Assembly: GCA_003157225.1 (NCBI GenBank)
Contig: PMIZ01000484.1
Span: forward strand, 7,261 to 13,007
Length of the DNA stretch: 5,747 bases
Direction: 5' to 3'
Origin: Actinomycetota bacterium
GTDB lineage: Bacteria; Actinomycetota; Thermoleophilia; RBG-16-64-13
Shown here one piece after another: positions 1-5,747 of this stretch. Position numbers and translations under genes: made by a program. Position 1 is the stretch's first letter; each line of letters opens with the position of its first letter. The notes below the pieces were generated by a model. It did not search any database, was not told where the DNA came from, and saw only the letters and a program-made list of their open reading frames with translations.

Positions 1-514
1 GGTGCAACTCCTCGTCGAACGAGTAGCGGCAGCCGGCGTGGAAGAGCACTTCCGCCTTTTCCTTGGTCAGATCCTTGGGCGTCAGCCCCGCGAGCCAGTT
101 GCCGCGGTCGGCTTTCTTGCCCTGCATCATGTTGTCTTCTTTGCGCAGGCCCTCGATCACCAACTGGTGGACCGGGTGCCCATACCCCTGCTCGACGCAC
201 ATGGTCCGGAGCTCGCGGATGTTCTCCAAAGGCTCCAGTTCCTGCACGGCTTTGCAGGAGATGTCGCAGCTGCCGTCCATCTGGCAGCGGTAGATGGCCT
301 CGAGAAGGCCGTCGGTTATCTCGGTTCGCCCACTCAGGTACGAAAGGGTGATGTTGAATTTCCCGCCCGAGGCATAGGCATGAAAGCCGTGTCTCGTGAC
401 TGCGGGGCACCCGTTCATGAAGTCCGGATGGCGCATGTTCTCGTAAGGGATGAATTTGCAGTACGAGCACCTGGTGCACCTCTGCGCGTCGTGCTTGCGG
501 TCTAGTAAAGCCAT
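1..514 (-). CDS. HdrD/GlcF-like iron-sulfur oxidoreductase subunit, partial (C-terminus beyond left edge)
   Basis: Translating the minus strand from the ATG at 514 gives 171 codons with no stop before the window edge. The product starts MALLDRKHDAQRCTRC. It has a first cluster motif C13-x2-C16-x2-C19 with a distant C36-P37, and a second motif C77-x5-C83-x3-C87 in which Asp80 sits where a cluster Cys is usual. The last visible residues (about 156-170, with G161-C162) look like the start of a CCG (cysteine-rich) domain. This order, two ferredoxin-type motifs then CCG domains, is that of HdrD, GlpC and GlcF proteins, which take electrons from a flavoprotein partner and pass them to a quinone, thiol or disulfide. 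Family members are usually about 400 residues, so over half is missing here. No signal peptide or membrane segment is visible in the part seen, so it is probably cytoplasmic. It follows the FAD gene by 11 bp, clearly in one operon. The electron acceptor is unknown. Confidence 0.88.
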   Translation of the reverse strand, partial: MALLDRKHDAQRCTRCSYCKFIPYENMRHPDFMNGCPAVTRHGFHAYASGGKFNITLSYLSGRTEITDGLLEAIYRCQMDGSCDISCKAVQELEPLENIRELRTMCVEQGYGHPVHQLVIEGLRKEDNMMQGKKADRGNWLAGLTPKDLTKEKAEVLFHAGCRYSFDEELH

Positions 515-522
515 AATCTCGA

Positions 523-527
523 CTCCT
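523..527 (-). promoter_or_regulatory. Ribosome binding site overlapping the upstream stop codon
   Basis: On the minus strand AGGAG lies 8 nt before the ATG at 514. Its first two bases are the last two of the TAG stop codon of the FAD gene. This fixes the start of the iron-sulfur gene and suggests that its translation is coupled to that of the FAD gene. Confidence 0.75.
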
Positions 528-1989
528 AGAAGCAGAGCTTGCCGGGATTGAGGATGTTGCCCGGATCGAAGATGTTCTTGACCTTGCGGTGCAGGATGGT
601 GGTGGTGGTCGCCTGGCCGTACGCCATCGTGGCCCAATCGCCGTAGGGGCGGGAGAAGAAGGCACCGGCCCGCAGCACATCCTCGGCGGCCTTGGCCGCG
701 ATTCCTCTGGCCTTCGCCACCTCGGCGGCCTTGGCCGGATCGTAGTAGAAGTCGAACTCGCAGTGGCAGCTCGTGCCTTGGGCCGTCATCTGCAGGTACA
801 CCCCGATGTCCCCGGCCGGGAACGCTTTCGCCGCCGCCAGGCCATCGATCGTCTCCACGAACCGCGGGGTCTGGTCGAGCGTCGTCAAGAAGAAGAGTTC
901 TTGCACACCCCCCCTGGCCCTCAGTTTCCAGTAAGGCTCGGGCGAAGGGGCCTGGAGGGCGACGCGCAGGTCGGCCGCCTTGATGCCTTCCAGCGCCTCG
1001 GCGGCTTCGAGACCGTTGGCGGCCACCAAGTCCCTGAAGTCGGCTTCCTGATACTCCACTTTGTCGGCCGCGAGAGGCCCTGCGCCTTCGATGCTGAACA
1101 TCATCACCCACCGGGGCACAGCCGCCGTTAGGCGCGCGATCTCAGCCGGGTCCTGGGCAACAAGGCAGGCCAGGTTGAGAGAGTTGACGATGAAACTGTG
1201 GTAGCCGAGCCTGGCTGTGTTCAATTGGTAGGTCAGCTCGAGCAAGGGGCCCAGCGCCGGTGAAGGTACCAGAAAGGCCCGCGTCTGTTCTGCCAGCGGC
1301 CGGCACTTGAGCGTGGCCCAGGTGACCAGCCCTATGGTGCCCTGAGCGCCCGAGATCAGCCGGTTCTGGTCGTACTGACCCGGACCGACCGGGGACATCT
1401 GCGCCTTGCCGATCTCCCATTGCTCTTCGACGGTGTCGGGCCCGGCGGCCTCACCGGTCCGGATCATGTCGCCGGTGCCGAGCACTATCTCGGCGCACAG
1501 CAGCGGGTCGAGCGCGTCCCAGTGATAGTTGGGGGTTGTGATCGGCTCTCTCTCCAGCATGGCCCCGACCACCGATTTCGAGGCTCGGGGGGCCAGCGGC
1601 AGGTACGCGGTCAGACCGGCTTTGCGCAGCTCGGTCTGGAGCTCCCCGTAGGTGACCCCGGGTTCGACCATCGCCACCCAGTTGATCGGGTCGATGCGGC
1701 GGATCTTCTTCATGCTACTGAGATCGACGATCACCGCGCCCCCAGCCGCAGGAACGGTGTCCCCTCGGAAATGGGGAGTACCGGAACTCACGGGGACGAG
1801 CGGGGTCGAAGTGGCGTTCGCCCACTTGACCAGCTCTTGGACCTGAGCGGTGGTCTCCGGCCTGGCCACGCACCAGGGTCTGACGTGAGGAGCGAAGCTC
1901 AGATCACCCGAGTGCTCTTCCAGAACAGCCGCATCGTCGAGCACGTTACCCCGGCCGACGATTGCTTCCAGATCGGTCGTTGCTCGCAT
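526..1989 (-). CDS. FAD-binding oxidoreductase, VAO/GlcD type (FAD_binding_4)
   Basis: A 487-residue protein of the vanillyl-alcohol-oxidase/glycolate-oxidase flavoprotein fold. Residues about 38-180 form the PCMH-type FAD domain: VARPETTAQVQELVKWAN (41-58), the phosphate-binding loop SSGTPHFRGDTVP (68-80), then VIVDLSSMKKI and EPGVTYGEL (109-117). GAQGTIGLVTWATLKC (214-229) is the second FAD-contact region. The C-terminus ends with the family signature FDPGNILNPGK. There is no signal peptide or membrane segment. Proteins of this type oxidise 2-hydroxy acids, alcohols or phenolic substrates; the substrate here cannot be named. The partner is the HdrD-like iron-sulfur protein encoded 11 bp downstream, as in GlcD/GlcF pairs, so electrons probably leave the flavin through Fe-S clusters rather than to oxygen. 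I chose the ATG at 1989 because GGGAGGTG lies just ahead of it. The in-frame TTG at 2001 would lengthen the protein by four residues but has no ribosome site. Confidence 0.9.
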   Translation of the reverse strand: MRATTDLEAIVGRGNVLDDAAVLEEHSGDLSFAPHVRPWCVARPETTAQVQELVKWANATSTPLVPVSSGTPHFRGDTVPAAGGAVIVDLSSMKKIRRIDPINWVAMVEPGVTYGELQTELRKAGLTAYLPLAPRASKSVVGAMLEREPITTPNYHWDALDPLLCAEIVLGTGDMIRTGEAAGPDTVEEQWEIGKAQMSPVGPGQYDQNRLISGAQGTIGLVTWATLKCRPLAEQTRAFLVPSPALGPLLELTYQLNTARLGYHSFIVNSLNLACLVAQDPAEIARLTAAVPRWVMMFSIEGAGPLAADKVEYQEADFRDLVAANGLEAAEALEGIKAADLRVALQAPSPEPYWKLRARGGVQELFFLTTLDQTPRFVETIDGLAAAKAFPAGDIGVYLQMTAQGTSCHCEFDFYYDPAKAAEVAKARGIAAKAAEDVLRAGAFFSRPYGDWATMAYGQATTTTILHRKVKNIFDPGNILNPGKLCF

Positions 1990-2021: not shown

Positions 2022-2035
2022 TGACCGGAGCGTCA
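2022..2035. promoter_or_regulatory. Operator-like dyad, copy 1 (TGAC-N6-GTCA)
   Basis: TGACCGGAGCGTCA has the same TGAC/GTCA half-sites and 6-bp spacing as the copies at 2042 and 2164. It lies in the leader of the FAD operon, centred exactly 20 bp (about two helical turns) from the copy at 2042. It is probably bound by the divergently encoded TetR-family protein (inference). Confidence 0.5.
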
Positions 2036-2041
2036 GTTTGA

Positions 2042-2055
2042 TGACTGCATGGTCA
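2042..2055. promoter_or_regulatory. Operator-like dyad, copy 2 (TGACT-N4-GGTCA)
   Basis: TGACTGCATGGTCA sits just past the predicted start of transcription of the FAD operon (about +5 to +18 on the minus strand). It shares ten of ten outer positions, TGACT-N4-GGTCA, with the copy at 2164, and both are preceded by TTG plus one purine. A repressor bound here would block early transcription of the FAD operon. Confidence 0.6.
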
Positions 2056-2065
2056 ATGCCTCCAA

Positions 2066-2094
2066 AGACTATCGAACCACCAACCGGTTGTCAA
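2066..2094 (-). promoter_or_regulatory. Sigma70-like promoter of the FAD/Fe-S operon
   Basis: On the minus strand a perfect -35 box TTGACA (2094-2089) is followed by a 17-nt spacer and the -10 box TAGTCT (2071-2066, four of six consensus bases). Transcription would start near 2059, giving a leader of about 70 nt. The spacer and -35 box are overlaid by the palindrome at 2081-2090 and the inverted repeat at 2088-2122, so this promoter is probably regulated. Confidence 0.6.
2081..2090. repeat. Perfect 10-bp palindrome in the promoter spacer
   Basis: CAACCGGTTG is its own reverse complement and overlaps a second small dyad, GTTG-T-CAAC (2087-2095). A related AACC-A-GGTT dyad lies at 2123-2131. 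These lie inside and upstream of the FAD-operon promoter and could be a second protein-binding site. A chance origin is not excluded for so short a palindrome. Confidence 0.4.
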
Positions 2095-2122
2095 CAGACT
2101 TATCCCCACTATCTGTGGACAA
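2088..2122. repeat. 11-bp inverted repeat over the -35 box, with DnaA-box-like elements
   Basis: TTGTCAACAGA (2088-2098) and TCTGTGGACAA (2112-2122) are inverted repeats matching at 10 of 11 positions, separated by 13 bp. The left arm covers the -35 box of the FAD operon. The same stretch holds three sequences close to DnaA boxes: TTGTCAACA (2088-2096), TTATCCCCA (2100-2108) and, on the minus strand, TTGTCCACA (2122-2114). The last is identical to the box consensus known in high-GC Gram-positives. It may be an operator for a dimeric regulator or a DnaA-responsive element. The sequence does not decide between them. Confidence 0.5.
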
Positions 2123-2129
2123 AACCAGG

Positions 2130-2156
2130 TTGCGTACGGTCTCGGCGGCTGATAAT
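2130..2156 (+). promoter_or_regulatory. Possible promoter of the TetR-family gene
   Basis: GATAAT (2151-2156, five of six -10 bases) is preceded by TTGCGT (2130-2135) at a short 15-nt spacing. Transcription would start near 2163, immediately before the dyad at 2164-2177. The -10 box is good but the -35 match and spacing are poor, so the exact promoter is uncertain. Confidence 0.35.
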
Positions 2157-2163
2157 CTCTTGG

Positions 2164-2177
2164 TGACTCATAGGTCA
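2164..2177. promoter_or_regulatory. Operator-like dyad, copy 3 (TGACT-N4-GGTCA)
   Basis: TGACTCATAGGTCA lies at about +2 to +15 of the predicted regulator transcript. This mirrors the place of copy 2 on the FAD-operon side. Its position fits autoregulation by the TetR-family protein, which is common in the family. Confidence 0.55.
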
Positions 2178-2207: not shown

Positions 2208-3164
2208 ATGACGATACCTTCGCCGATCGGCAGGCCGGCCGCAGAGCTCCTTGCCGCAGACGACAGCCAACGGGAAAAGCGAGACCGCATCATCGAGCGG
2301 GCCATCGTCATGTTCAACCAGATGGGCTACGACCGAGTGCGGGTAATCGACATCACCGATTCGCTCAACATCGGCAAAGGCACGTTCTATCTGTACTTCC
2401 GCGACAAGAAGAATCTGCTGCTCCGTTGCTTCGACCATGTCCGCGAGCTCATCCGAGAGCTCGAGTCCCTTCCCGAGATACGCGGGGGTGATTTCTTCGC
2501 AAAGGTCCGGCCACGCGTGGAAAACATCGGCCAGCGTGATTGGTTCCCCGGCCTTGTCAACCTGCTGCGGGCAGCGGAGCTGTCGCCCGACGAGGAGGTC
2601 AAGAGCAAGGCCCGCGAGGCATATGACAGCATCGCTGATCATCTCAGGCGCGACCTGCAGGAGGCGATCCAGACCGGCGAAGCCAGGGCGGTGGATCCCG
2701 ATCTGGCCGCGTACGGCTTCATCGGTATGGCGGAGAACCTCTGGTTCCGCTCCCGGCTCGACGACCGCTACCCGGCGGAGCAGGTCGTCAACTTCATGGC
2801 GGATGAGACCCGGCACTGGCTCTCGTCTGCAGGCGCCCCCACAACACAGCGCCGGACCGGAACGGTCGTCAGCTTGGTCTGTCGCGACGGCGAGCGGTTC
2901 GACCTCACCAATGTCCGATACAACGGCGAGAAGACCATGGCTGCGGCTCTTGGCCGGGCCCACCTCGACATCGAGCCGGCCCACTTGGTGAGCCTCGTGG
3001 TCCACGAAGGTGATGAGGAATGCCGCGTTGATGTGCGGACCAAAGAGGAATCGGAGGTCGAGGTGCGGGTGGCCGGCTCTCTGATGATCACAGGCGACGC
3101 CGCACTGGGCGGTGTGCGGCTGGCGTTACGGGATCTGGCAAGCCTCACCTGGAGTGAGCAGTAG
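2208..3164 (+). CDS. TetR/AcrR-family regulator with an extra C-terminal domain
   Basis: A 318-residue protein. Residues about 22-70 are a typical TetR DNA-binding domain: KRDRIIERAIVMFNQMGYD, then the helix-turn-helix VIDITDSLNIGKGTFYLYF (46-64) and RDKKNLL. Residues about 75-205 are mainly helical, as expected for the ligand-binding and dimer domain. Residues about 217-315 are an unusual addition, since most TetR proteins end near 190-220. This part is beta-rich and begins GTVVSLVCRDGERFDLTNVRY; it ends with a GGVRLALRDLASLTW strand that resembles small beta-barrel domains. Its role is unknown; ligand sensing or protein contact is possible. The gene is transcribed away from the FAD/Fe-S operon, and three matching dyads lie between them, so it is probably an autoregulated repressor of that operon. 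The effector cannot be named. I chose the ATG at 2208 on its ribosome site. Confidence 0.88.
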   Translation: MTIPSPIGRPAAELLAADDSQREKRDRIIERAIVMFNQMGYDRVRVIDITDSLNIGKGTFYLYFRDKKNLLLRCFDHVRELIRELESLPEIRGGDFFAKVRPRVENIGQRDWFPGLVNLLRAAELSPDEEVKSKAREAYDSIADHLRRDLQEAIQTGEARAVDPDLAAYGFIGMAENLWFRSRLDDRYPAEQVVNFMADETRHWLSSAGAPTTQRRTGTVVSLVCRDGERFDLTNVRYNGEKTMAAALGRAHLDIEPAHLVSLVVHEGDEECRVDVRTKEESEVEVRVAGSLMITGDAALGGVRLALRDLASLTWSEQ

Positions 3165-3293: not shown

Positions 3294-4100
3294 TCAGCCG
3301 AGAGGGATGTCTCCGAGGTTCACGGCCTCTTCAGCACTGATGGAGGCATAGCTCTTCACCGGAAAGCCGGCGGCCGCGATCTCGAGCGAGTAGACGCCGG
3401 CCTCCAAGCCTTCGAACCAGAAGTCGCCGAACCCGTCGGTCGTGGCCTTTCGAGCGATCCCCGCGCCCGTGAGAGTGCATGTTGCCCCGCGCACTACCAC
3501 CTTCTCTGCCGGATCGTACACCGTGCCCGCGATGAACTTCTTGGGGATGTTCAGGTAGAAGACCCGGGGATTCTCCTCCTCAGGATGGAGCATCTCCGCG
3601 CGCTCGATCAACTCGAGGGCGTCCTCTTCGTCGAGGAACTTGAGCGCCGCCGTCGGGCAGGCGTCGACGCAGCGCGGCTCCTTCCAGCCGGCGTCCAGCA
3701 AATGCGCACACCCTGTGCACTTCTGGGCGATGTTCAAAGCCTCGTTGATGAAGATAGCGTGGCTCGAGCAGACGCTCACGCAGCTCATGCAGCCGGTGCA
3801 TTTCTCGGGGTCAATGACCACGAGACCATCGTCCCGCTTGTAGATGGCTCCCTCGACCTTGCAGGCCGCCGCGCATGCGGCATCGTCGCAGTGATTGCAG
3901 AGCGTGGGCAAGTAGTGAACCTTGACCTTGGGGATCGTCCCCCTGACATGCTCGTGCAGCTGCAGCCAGAACTGCCCGGTGTCGGGCTGCGGCTTCGCGT
4001 AGGGAGTCCAATCGTTGCTGCAATGCTCGTCCTTGCAGGCCAACTGACAGCAATAGCAGCCGTTGCACACCGAGGTGTCGAACGCGAAGACCTTGCTCAT
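3294..4100 (-). CDS. Molybdoenzyme Fe-S (beta) subunit, transhydroxylase small-subunit type
   Basis: A 268-residue electron-transfer subunit. Residues 1-155 form a DmsB/NrfC-type ferredoxin with four complete cysteine groups: C12-C15-C18-C22, C68-C71-C76-C80, C101-C104-C107-C111 and C128-C131-C144-C148, enough for four [4Fe-4S] clusters. After a linker, residues about 188-268 form a small beta-sandwich (IAGTVYDP..., DGFGDFWFEGLEAGVYSLEI), like Cna-B or carboxypeptidase-regulatory domains. The same arrangement, ferredoxin plus a C-terminal transthyretin-like barrel, is known in the small subunit of Pelobacter acidigallici pyrogallol-phloroglucinol transhydroxylase. That protein, as I recall it, has a degenerate third cysteine group and three clusters. 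There is no Tat signal or membrane anchor, so a cytoplasmic complex is likely. The start overlaps the large-subunit stop as ATGA, with GAGGGAGAG 5 nt ahead. The partner is certain; the exact reaction is not. Confidence 0.9.
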   Translation of the reverse strand: MSKVFAFDTSVCNGCYCCQLACKDEHCSNDWTPYAKPQPDTGQFWLQLHEHVRGTIPKVKVHYLPTLCNHCDDAACAAACKVEGAIYKRDDGLVVIDPEKCTGCMSCVSVCSSHAIFINEALNIAQKCTGCAHLLDAGWKEPRCVDACPTAALKFLDEEDALELIERAEMLHPEEENPRVFYLNIPKKFIAGTVYDPAEKVVVRGATCTLTGAGIARKATTDGFGDFWFEGLEAGVYSLEIAAAGFPVKSYASISAEEAVNLGDIPLG

Positions 4101-5747
4101 CTGGACTCTCCCTCATCAGCCTCCAGCACCCACGCCTCAAAGCGCAGCCCTGACGCTGGGTCGTACTCTCTCTCGAACGCTTCGGGGTACTTCTCGCGCC
4201 AGCCTTCCATCTCAGCCATGGTCACCTTCTGCACGTCGACCAGAAAGCCACTAGTCGCCATGCCCCAGCAGTTGGGCGAGATCCCGTTGAGCGGTGAGAT
4301 GAGGTTGTTTGCGCCGCCCCGGTCGATGTTGCCGTCGGGGCCACCGACGCAGATCATGTCGGCTCTCGCGCCGTGGTCGCTCGACACCGCGCCCGGCATG
4401 ATCCTTTCCCACACGAGCGCTCCACCGAGGACAGTGCCGCGCTCGTTGAACATCTTGACGAGGTCCCCATCCTTGATGCCCCGTGCTTCTGCATCGTGCG
4501 GATGCATCCAGATCGGCTCGTACATATAGCCGTCCCAGCCCTTGACCTTGCAGGTGAAGATCTCGCGCGTCCAGGGGATGTCGTCGTTCTGCGCGTGGAT
4601 CCTCCAGCGGCCGTGGTTGCTCATGAGCAGTAGCGGATACTTCTCGGCCCGCTCGCTCGAGATGCGCTCGTCGTGAAAGCTGTCCCTCTCGATCCACTTG
4701 GCCAGAGGTCCCCGCACCGTGTCGTCGGGGAAGATGTCGGCCAGCCGCTGCGAGTAGAACTCCAGCTTGCCGGTCGGCGTATCCAGCGGGTGCTTCTCAG
4801 GGTCCTCGTAGAACAGGCGGAGGCCCGGCGGCACCTTCTCCCACTCGGGATCGGTGGGGGCGATCCAGTACTCCTTGTCCTGGAAGTCATCCCAACTGAT
4901 GACCTGCGCGAGCTGCATGTTGTCGTAGCCGATCTTCATCTTCTCCCGGATGGACAGCGGCCCGGCGTACTCTTCGTAGAGCCCCAGCTTCTTGGCCACT
5001 TCACCCACGGCCTCGTAGTCGCTCAGAGATTCGCCGACCGGCTCGATGGCTTGGTTCTCGATGATGGCGCCGTGCACCGAGCGGCCTCCGGCGGAGAGGC
5101 GCATGATGTCTTCCTCTTCCAGCTTGGTGTTGATCGGCAGGATGAGGTCGGCGAGGACGGTGTCGTTCTCCAGCCACAAATGCTGCACGAGCAGCGTCTC
5201 GATCTTGGGGCTGCGCAAGGCCTCCACCGTCTTGAACCCGTCATTCCAGCAGGTCGTGCGGCAGGGGTTGTCCATCCAGATCATGCGGATCTCGGTGCCG
5301 CCTTCTTCCTTGGGTATCGGGTAGACGACCTTGCGGAACTGGTCTTCGAGCGGAGCGAAGAACATCGTGCTGCCCGAGCTCTCGGTGTGCCCCTTCATGA
5401 TCGCGTCGTACAGTTGGGTCTTGGGGATCAACTGCTTTGAGGAAGGCCACAACTGGCCCTGGCCGGGGAACAGGACCCCCTTCTCCTTACTCTCCTCGGC
5501 AGGGAAACGCAAGTCGGGAAGCTGGATGGCGGTCTTCGGGCCGTCATTCATCCAATGGTCGTCGCCGCCCATCTTGAAGTACTGGTGCACTCCGGGTTTG
5601 CCCAGACCCTGCATGCCGAGGAGATAGGCCTCCAGTCGCGCCGGCTCGTGCGAGTAAGGGCCGCGCACGTACGAACCGCCGTAGAAGTGGATGACGGTGG
5701 TGATCTGCTTGGCCCATTCCTGGGCCAGAGCCTTGATGGTCCATTCG
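4097..5747 (-). CDS. Molybdopterin oxidoreductase large (alpha) subunit, partial (N-terminus beyond right edge)
   Basis: The reading frame is open from the right edge (first full codon ends at 5746) to the TGA at 4099-4097, giving 549 residues. The GTG at 5668 is internal, not a start. It is the C-terminal part of a DMSO-reductase-superfamily enzyme that binds bis-molybdopterin guanine dinucleotide. Signs are MQGLGKPGVHQ (about 45-55), the segment VQHLWLENDTVLADLILPINTKLEEEDI (about 185-215), and the C-terminal cofactor domain starting near MSNHGRWRIHAQNDD (375-389), followed by EPIWMHPHDAEARGIKDGDLVKMFNERG. With its beta subunit it best fits the transhydroxylase/catechol dehydroxylase/acetylene hydratase branch, whose large subunits are about 850-900 residues. 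The Mo ligand and any N-terminal cluster or Tat signal lie outside the window, so substrate and location are inferred only from the partner. No frameshift is visible. Confidence 0.88.
   Translation of the reverse strand, partial: EWTIKALAQEWAKQITTVIHFYGGSYVRGPYSHEPARLEAYLLGMQGLGKPGVHQYFKMGGDDHWMNDGPKTAIQLPDLRFPAEESKEKGVLFPGQGQLWPSSKQLIPKTQLYDAIMKGHTESSGSTMFFAPLEDQFRKVVYPIPKEEGGTEIRMIWMDNPCRTTCWNDGFKTVEALRSPKIETLLVQHLWLENDTVLADLILPINTKLEEEDIMRLSAGGRSVHGAIIENQAIEPVGESLSDYEAVGEVAKKLGLYEEYAGPLSIREKMKIGYDNMQLAQVISWDDFQDKEYWIAPTDPEWEKVPPGLRLFYEDPEKHPLDTPTGKLEFYSQRLADIFPDDTVRGPLAKWIERDSFHDERISSERAEKYPLLLMSNHGRWRIHAQNDDIPWTREIFTCKVKGWDGYMYEPIWMHPHDAEARGIKDGDLVKMFNERGTVLGGALVWERIMPGAVSSDHGARADMICVGGPDGNIDRGGANNLISPLNGISPNCWGMATSGFLVDVQKVTMAEMEGWREKYPEAFEREYDPASGLRFEAWVLEADEGESR
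4106..4114 (-). promoter_or_regulatory. Ribosome binding site of the beta subunit inside the alpha gene
   Basis: GAGGGAGAG lies within the last codons of the alpha subunit, 5 nt before the beta ATG at 4100. Start and stop overlap as ATGA (4100-4097). This is the usual sign of coupled translation giving balanced amounts of the two subunits. Confidence 0.7.

Follow-up and report, generated by a model that had tools for sequence, protein, structure and literature searches.

The 5,747-nt stretch analyzed here (hereafter the window; positions 7,261 to 13,007 of contig PMIZ01000484.1, assembly GCA_003157225.1) comes from a bacterium of the actinobacterial class Thermoleophilia and encodes a TetR-family regulator transcribed divergently from a gene for a FAD-linked oxidoreductase. 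The gap between the two genes contains three copies of the dyad TGAC-N6-GTCA. We consider these dyads to be very probably the operators of an autoregulating TetR-family repressor, the product of the adjacent gene at 2208-3164, which would act over both start sites of the shared control region. The dyads and genes of the window are the following.

2022..2035: candidate operator copy 1, TGACCGGAGCGTCA, auxiliary and probably a weaker site; exact dyad 20 bp from copy 2, within the leader of the FAD-enzyme gene
2042..2055: candidate operator copy 2 (enzyme side), TGACTGCATGGTCA; exact dyad over or just past the predicted start site of the FAD-enzyme promoter
2164..2177: candidate operator copy 3 (regulator side), TGACTCATAGGTCA; exact dyad that follows a weak promoter and precedes the regulator's ATG
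1990-2207: divergent gap of 218 bp, between the ATG at 1989 (minus strand) and the ATG at 2208 (plus strand)
2208..3164, plus strand: TetR-family regulator of 318 amino acids (aa) (Pfam TetR_N, 4.7e-10)
526..1989, minus strand: FAD-linked oxidoreductase of the vanillyl-alcohol oxidase / p-cresol methylhydroxylase kind, the presumed target
2..514, minus strand: iron-sulfur protein gene (Fer4_8), truncated by the left window edge, the presumed second gene of the FAD-enzyme operon
3294-5746, minus strand: molybdenum enzyme pair, the large subunit running past the right edge

The divergent control region

Both start codons bounding the gap were chosen by us from the open reading frame data. Exact matches to TGAC-N6-GTCA begin at 2022, 2042 and 2164 and no fourth is present in the window, as the original prediction had stated; the spacing of 20 bp between copies 1 and 2 and the extended form TGACT-N4-GGTCA common to copies 2 and 3 were likewise verified in the letters. 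Dyads with one mismatch occur twice in the window, at 2588 and 4876, both of them inside genes. The chance expectation had been put at about 0.003 copies for the gap; shuffles of the gap that preserve dinucleotides give a mean of 0.008, with at least one copy in 24 of 3000. As the motif had been chosen post hoc, a broader count was also taken of any 4-base word paired with its reverse complement across a gap of 0-12 bases, and three copies of any such palindrome were reached in 1/3000 shuffles of the same kind. The control region shared by the two genes thus has more palindromic sites than chance would give, by the exact count and by shuffling.

The gene neighbourhood appears to deal with phenolic compounds, because the FAD and molybdenum enzymes resemble enzymes of p-cresol/vanillyl-alcohol and pyrogallol metabolism. 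The nearest PDB group of the FAD protein includes p-cresol methylhydroxylase and vanillyl-alcohol oxidase, and the best PDB match of the molybdenum pair is pyrogallol hydroxytransferase (4v4c; E 4.1e-45 for the small subunit and 4.3e-43 for the large one). The iron-sulfur protein gave no PDB match at E 0.001. The C-terminal domain of the small molybdenum subunit is carboxypeptidase-regulatory-like. Close to the molybdenum-enzyme genes the window has no exact dyad, and their promoter would fall beyond its right edge.

Conservation of the dyads and of the recognition helix

A scan of genome contigs for the regulator returned 33 loci, of which one (L001, from Thermoleophilia FR_37) encodes a full-length close ortholog, with 51% identity over residues 23-318. 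Two dyads in its divergent gap are exact, one near each gene: TGACTGACGAGTCA and TGACTCGCTGGTCA (at 7714 and 7894). The regulator-side dyad stands 39 nt before the ATG, a place matching that of copy 3 in the window (30 nt). Including a third exact dyad inside the ligase gene (7368), the 16.9-kb locus holds three, against 0.24 by shuffling, a number reached in 0/300 shuffles. The divergent gene of this locus encodes an AMP-ligase and is followed by one for an old-yellow-enzyme-type reductase, unlike the FAD enzyme of the window, and a tblastn comparison of the four enzymes of the window with loci L001-L049 gave no match at E 1e-8. The dyads therefore track the regulator and not the target, since they persist where the neighbouring genes differ. 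The original prediction had turned on conservation of the dyads in orthologous regions, and this was borne out in the one close ortholog read at DNA level, which keeps two of them in its gap.

Two more distant loci follow the same pattern of a related regulator with the same dyads before neighbouring genes. The regulator of L002 (Deltaproteobacteria) is 34% identical over residues 19-315, the C-terminal domain included. One dyad (1253) lies between it and an AMP-ligase operon and another (1481) inside the ligase gene, two dyads being reached in 1/300 shuffles; the neighbours (AMP-ligase, amidohydrolase and thiolase genes) are unlike the enzymes of the window. In L003 (Desulfuromonadaceae) the regulator is a MerR-TetR fusion (L003:7647-8600), whose match to the window protein ends at residue 206. 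Here the divergent gap contains dyads 7355 and 7614, dyad 5889 precedes the next gene, and 6010 and 6319 fall inside a gene, which makes five against 0.16 by shuffling (0/300 shuffles). Across the three loci the genes beside the regulator differ from those of the window, being genes for AMP-ligase or CoA-transferase and old-yellow-enzyme-type reductases.

The search for further close orthologs with DNA was made around G001, the genome of L001, in its class (399 genomes), its order (18) and its phylum (396), and gave a close match in G001 alone; in the class and phylum searches, whose genome sets were sampled from larger groups, at most five candidates were scored per genome. In the phylum search 14/396 genomes passed E 1e-25, 13 of these with much weaker matches. 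A viral collection gave no regulator match, and the plasmid search gave nine records, all of distant TetR proteins. G001 also stood in for the organism of the window in a genome-wide scan, which found 63 exact dyads. Fifty of them were classified, and a frame-composition rule of our own placed 45 in probable coding sequence; of the other 13, three are those of the L001 locus (7368, 7714 and 7894).

The regulator itself consists, by alignment and structure models, of a TetR_N domain with the recognition helix GKGTFYLYF, a helical core and a C-terminal beta domain at about residues 219-315. A TetR_N-domain protein is thus encoded directly beside the sites, in the arrangement of a divergent repressor. 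In an alignment of 35 rows, comprising this regulator and 34 of the 37 proteins found by search, residues G56, K57, G58, F60, Y61, L62 and F64 are invariant.

The closest parallel at the DNA is offered by SbtR (TTHA0167, PDB 3VUQ) of Thermus thermophilus HB8. For this protein the published study gives a selected 14-bp consensus, TGACYRNNYRGTCA, a KD of about 0.2 nM for the best site, a cost of about 70-fold for a change at position 5, and, for 10 of 12 candidate target genes, sites that lie inside the core promoter or overlap it (PMC4948773). Alignment of 3VUQ with the window regulator places the recognition helices, GKGTIYLYFRDKRDLL and GKGTFYLYFRDKKNLL, opposite each other and shows them to be near-identical, and the 14-bp TGAC-N6-GTCA framework is the same. 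The outer TGAC and GTCA six bases apart are present in 3/3 window copies. Of the inner SbtR positions (Y5, R6, Y9 and R10) copy 2 has 4/4 and copies 1 and 3 have 2/4 each. The pyrimidine at position 5 is present in both half-sites of copies 2 and 3. Nine dyads were counted as regulatory (three of the window, two of L001, one of L002 and three of L003), and the position-5 rule holds in 7/9 of these against 12/50 of the other G001 dyads.

Overall the two proteins align weakly (E 8.3e-8, residues 22-170). SbtR has other target genes, and with 189 residues it is too short to have room for the C-terminal beta domain. The weak similarity and this extra domain rule out that the window regulator is an ortholog of SbtR; it appears to work like SbtR at the DNA, yet is not SbtR.

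The helix and the half-site also go together in a larger set. The 33 scan loci were retrieved by GKGTFYL or by a second conserved stretch, and all of them encode GKGTFYL. A TGAC/GTCA pair at a spacing of 0-10 is present within about 450 nt upstream in 26 of them, where 1.9 would be expected by shuffling. Divided post hoc by the residue that follows, the pair is found in 26/28 loci with GKGTFYLY and in 0/5 with another residue after GKGTFYL. As a control served 21 loci of distant TetR proteins from the phylum search (L050-L070), of which L065 gave no tblastn match, leaving 20; the pair lies within 450 nt upstream in 1/20 (0.6 expected).

Operator position and proposed mode of action

The promoter elements of the gap are listed below, those of the regulator being tentative.

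2089..2094, minus strand: -35 box TTGACA (perfect) of the enzyme-side promoter
2066..2071, minus strand: -10 box TAGTCT (3 of 6) of the enzyme-side promoter, after a spacer of 17 nt
2130..2135, plus strand: weak -35-like TTGCGT of the tentative regulator promoter, read from the letters
2151..2158, plus strand: -10-like GATAAT (5 of 6) / TAATCT of the tentative regulator promoter

Copies 2 and 3 had been described as lying just after the start sites of two opposed promoters. This is borne out on the enzyme side, where the order is TTGACA, 17 nt, TAGTCT, 10 nt and copy 2, so that TTGACA begins 39 nt before the dyad. The regulator side is weak, and a consensus promoter scan gave no promoter at the threshold of the scanner. 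The same distance of 39 nt from the first base of TTGACA to the dyad recurs at L001 7714 and L003 7355, and it is 37 nt at L002 1253 and 44 nt at L003 7614. A perfect TTGACA thus stands 37-44 nt upstream of 5/9 regulatory dyads, a range fixed post hoc, after the promoter letters had been inspected. It stands at that distance, on either strand, at 0/50 of the other G001 dyads, and none of the four intragenic dyads of L001-L003 has it within 60 nt. With this spacing the operator would coincide with the start site or follow it closely, a position suited to blocking of RNA polymerase by a bound dimer on the enzyme side.

We propose that a dimer of the repressor binds TGAC-N6-GTCA. At copy 2 it would block RNA polymerase at the FAD-enzyme/iron-sulfur operon by covering the start site of its promoter, and at copy 3 it would act likewise on the promoter of the regulator, which would therefore repress itself. 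Copy 1 stands some two helical turns away from copy 2 and is probably a second, weaker site reinforcing repression of the enzyme operon. The inducer would be a small pathway molecule, with a phenolic compound or its CoA ester as the likeliest candidate for releasing the repressor. Copies 2 and 3 are firmly predicted as operators. Copy 1 is probably auxiliary, because it departs from the half-site rule and the ortholog has nothing corresponding to it. The original proposal that the dyads form a candidate operator set for the adjacent TetR-family protein thus draws support from the dyads in the gap of the ortholog, from the distant relatives and from the match of helix and site to SbtR.

Several observations weigh against this proposal. 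DNA of a close ortholog comes from one genome, the other 33 aligned proteins being without DNA, and in L001 copy 1 finds no counterpart. In copy 1 one half-site has G at position 5, a departure from the half-site rule of SbtR. Neither copy 3 nor L001 7894 has TTGACA within 60 nt. The L002 regulator lies at a contig end, which leaves its own promoter out of view. Four exact dyads of L001-L003 (7368, 1481, 6010 and 6319) fall inside genes, so the motif alone is insufficient. The spacing varies among the GKGTFYL loci: of the 26 positives nine have N6, 13 have N5 without N6 and four have N2 alone. These positives are redundant, many being close relatives (eight from Streptomyces, five from Omnitrophota), and 7/33 loci have no pair, L002 among them having been searched over 111 nt only. 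In the distant TetR loci a search extended to 900 nt upstream found the pair in 7/20 (1.5 expected), all with N2 and all with the helix GHSTFY; the 450-nt control had been too favourable, because a fused MerR part pushes the promoters outside that stretch.

It could be supposed that the dyads serve a different, unlinked regulator, such as a second TetR protein of the genome with a taste for this word. Words of the TGAC/GTCA kind precede many TetR genes with related helices, that of SbtR included, and related genomes hold 9 to 20 TetR_N matches each. However, the dyads stay with the adjacent regulator where the enzyme genes around it are different, and its helix matches that of SbtR, a reader of this very word. 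We regard the unlinked regulator as improbable.

The regulator might instead activate the enzyme operon through copies 1 and 2. Some TetR proteins act as activators, and DhaS is named an activator in NCBIfam. Against this, a protein bound past the -10 box, as at copy 2, or in the leader, as at copy 1, is well placed to block, and the same downstream spacing is repeated in L001 and L003. MbdR of Azoarcus sp. CIB, the TetR repressor of the operon for anaerobic 3-methylbenzoate degradation, likewise binds across the start site (PMC4424350). That protein differs from the one proposed here in its operator, ATAC-N10-GTAT instead of TGAC-N6-GTCA, and the cited part of the paper does not mention a C-terminal beta domain (PMC4424350). 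Activation seems to us very unlikely.

A chance origin, with three unrelated matches falling within one gap, can be set aside in spite of the selection of the motif after inspection and the 63 exact copies in the related genome, given the 1/3000 shuffles obtained with any word and gap and the return of the dyads in the gap of the ortholog.

The proposed repressor with its dyads as operators belongs to a well-known kind of system in an ordinary arrangement. New here are this member, how closely site, helix and promoter spacing agree between phyla, and the extra C-terminal domain, which as modelled would be an addition to the usual two-part plan of TetR proteins. The proposal yields a testable operator and an inducer assay for an apparent phenolic-compound cluster of the little-studied class Thermoleophilia.

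Half-sites upstream of other TetR genes

The control loci show that TGAC/GTCA words also accompany helices other than GKGTFYL, because loci with GHSTFY carry N2 pairs. The pair is found in 7/8 of the latter (L053, L055, L057, L062, L063, L064 and L070, not L059) and in 0/12 loci with other helices. In the seven, TGAC-NN-GTCA stands about 400-525 nt before the TetR domain, near the gene starts, and L070 has a second copy at 742 nt. By eye, many of these distant actinobacterial relatives (L050-L070) also start with a MerR-like part. The N6 dyad was found within about 1.5 kb of 0/21 of them. The half-site therefore appears to be common to several related helices and the N6 spacing to be narrower. 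Such sharing leaves room for another TetR protein reading the same word and does not weaken the local case.

Sixty TetR loci were also chosen without regard to the helix, 30 from G001, G758 and G759 and 30 from G760 and G761. In the preset class GKGT.YLYF the pair is present in 2/3, both of them previously known loci and the third being the L002 regulator at its contig end; it is present in 1/2 of KGT.Y and in 9/55 of all others (3.06 expected), L161 and L165 being two of these nine. This helix-blind test is less sharp than the set selected by GKGTFYL.

A broader reading, put forward tentatively and, taken as a whole, somewhat more apt to fail than to hold, would combine the helix code, the C-terminal domain and an exchange of targets. 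According to it the helix GKGT(F/I)YLY would specify TGAC/GTCA half-sites in at least five phyla, with spacing alone varying (2, 5 or 6 bases). The GHSTFY variant would retain the half-site at spacing 2, and loss of the second tyrosine would abolish its use. The reading head would be fused to a duplicated C-terminal beta domain resembling ImpE/HsiE that would serve as a second part for sensing or docking, and regulator and operator would stay put while the controlled catabolic genes swap. Our confidence in this combination was lowered because the distant control loci proved negative for N6 only. If the correlation of helix and half-site holds more widely, operators of many uncharacterised TetR proteins could be predicted from protein sequence. 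The RutR operator, TTGACCA-NN-TGGTCAA, on which the literature search gave nothing, fits the TGAC/GTCA framework.

In the genome of L024 (Paenibacillus) two TetR genes, L161 and L165, have the helices QGTFYLYF and KGAFYLHF. Full TGACTGA-type sites, spotted post hoc, lie upstream of them: TGACTGATGAGTCAGTCA for QGTFYLYF, and TGACTGACTGGTCA and TGACCAGTCAGTCA for KGAFYLHF. The recognition code may therefore reach beyond the preset class. Sites of the type TGACTGAC-NN-GTCAGTCA are found in L007, L008, L011, L013, L014, L015 and L022, from Omnitrophota, Elusimicrobia and one unclassified bacterium. They amount to two overlapping N6 dyads (one in L008) and are located where a TetR gene begins whose helix is IGKGTFYLYF.
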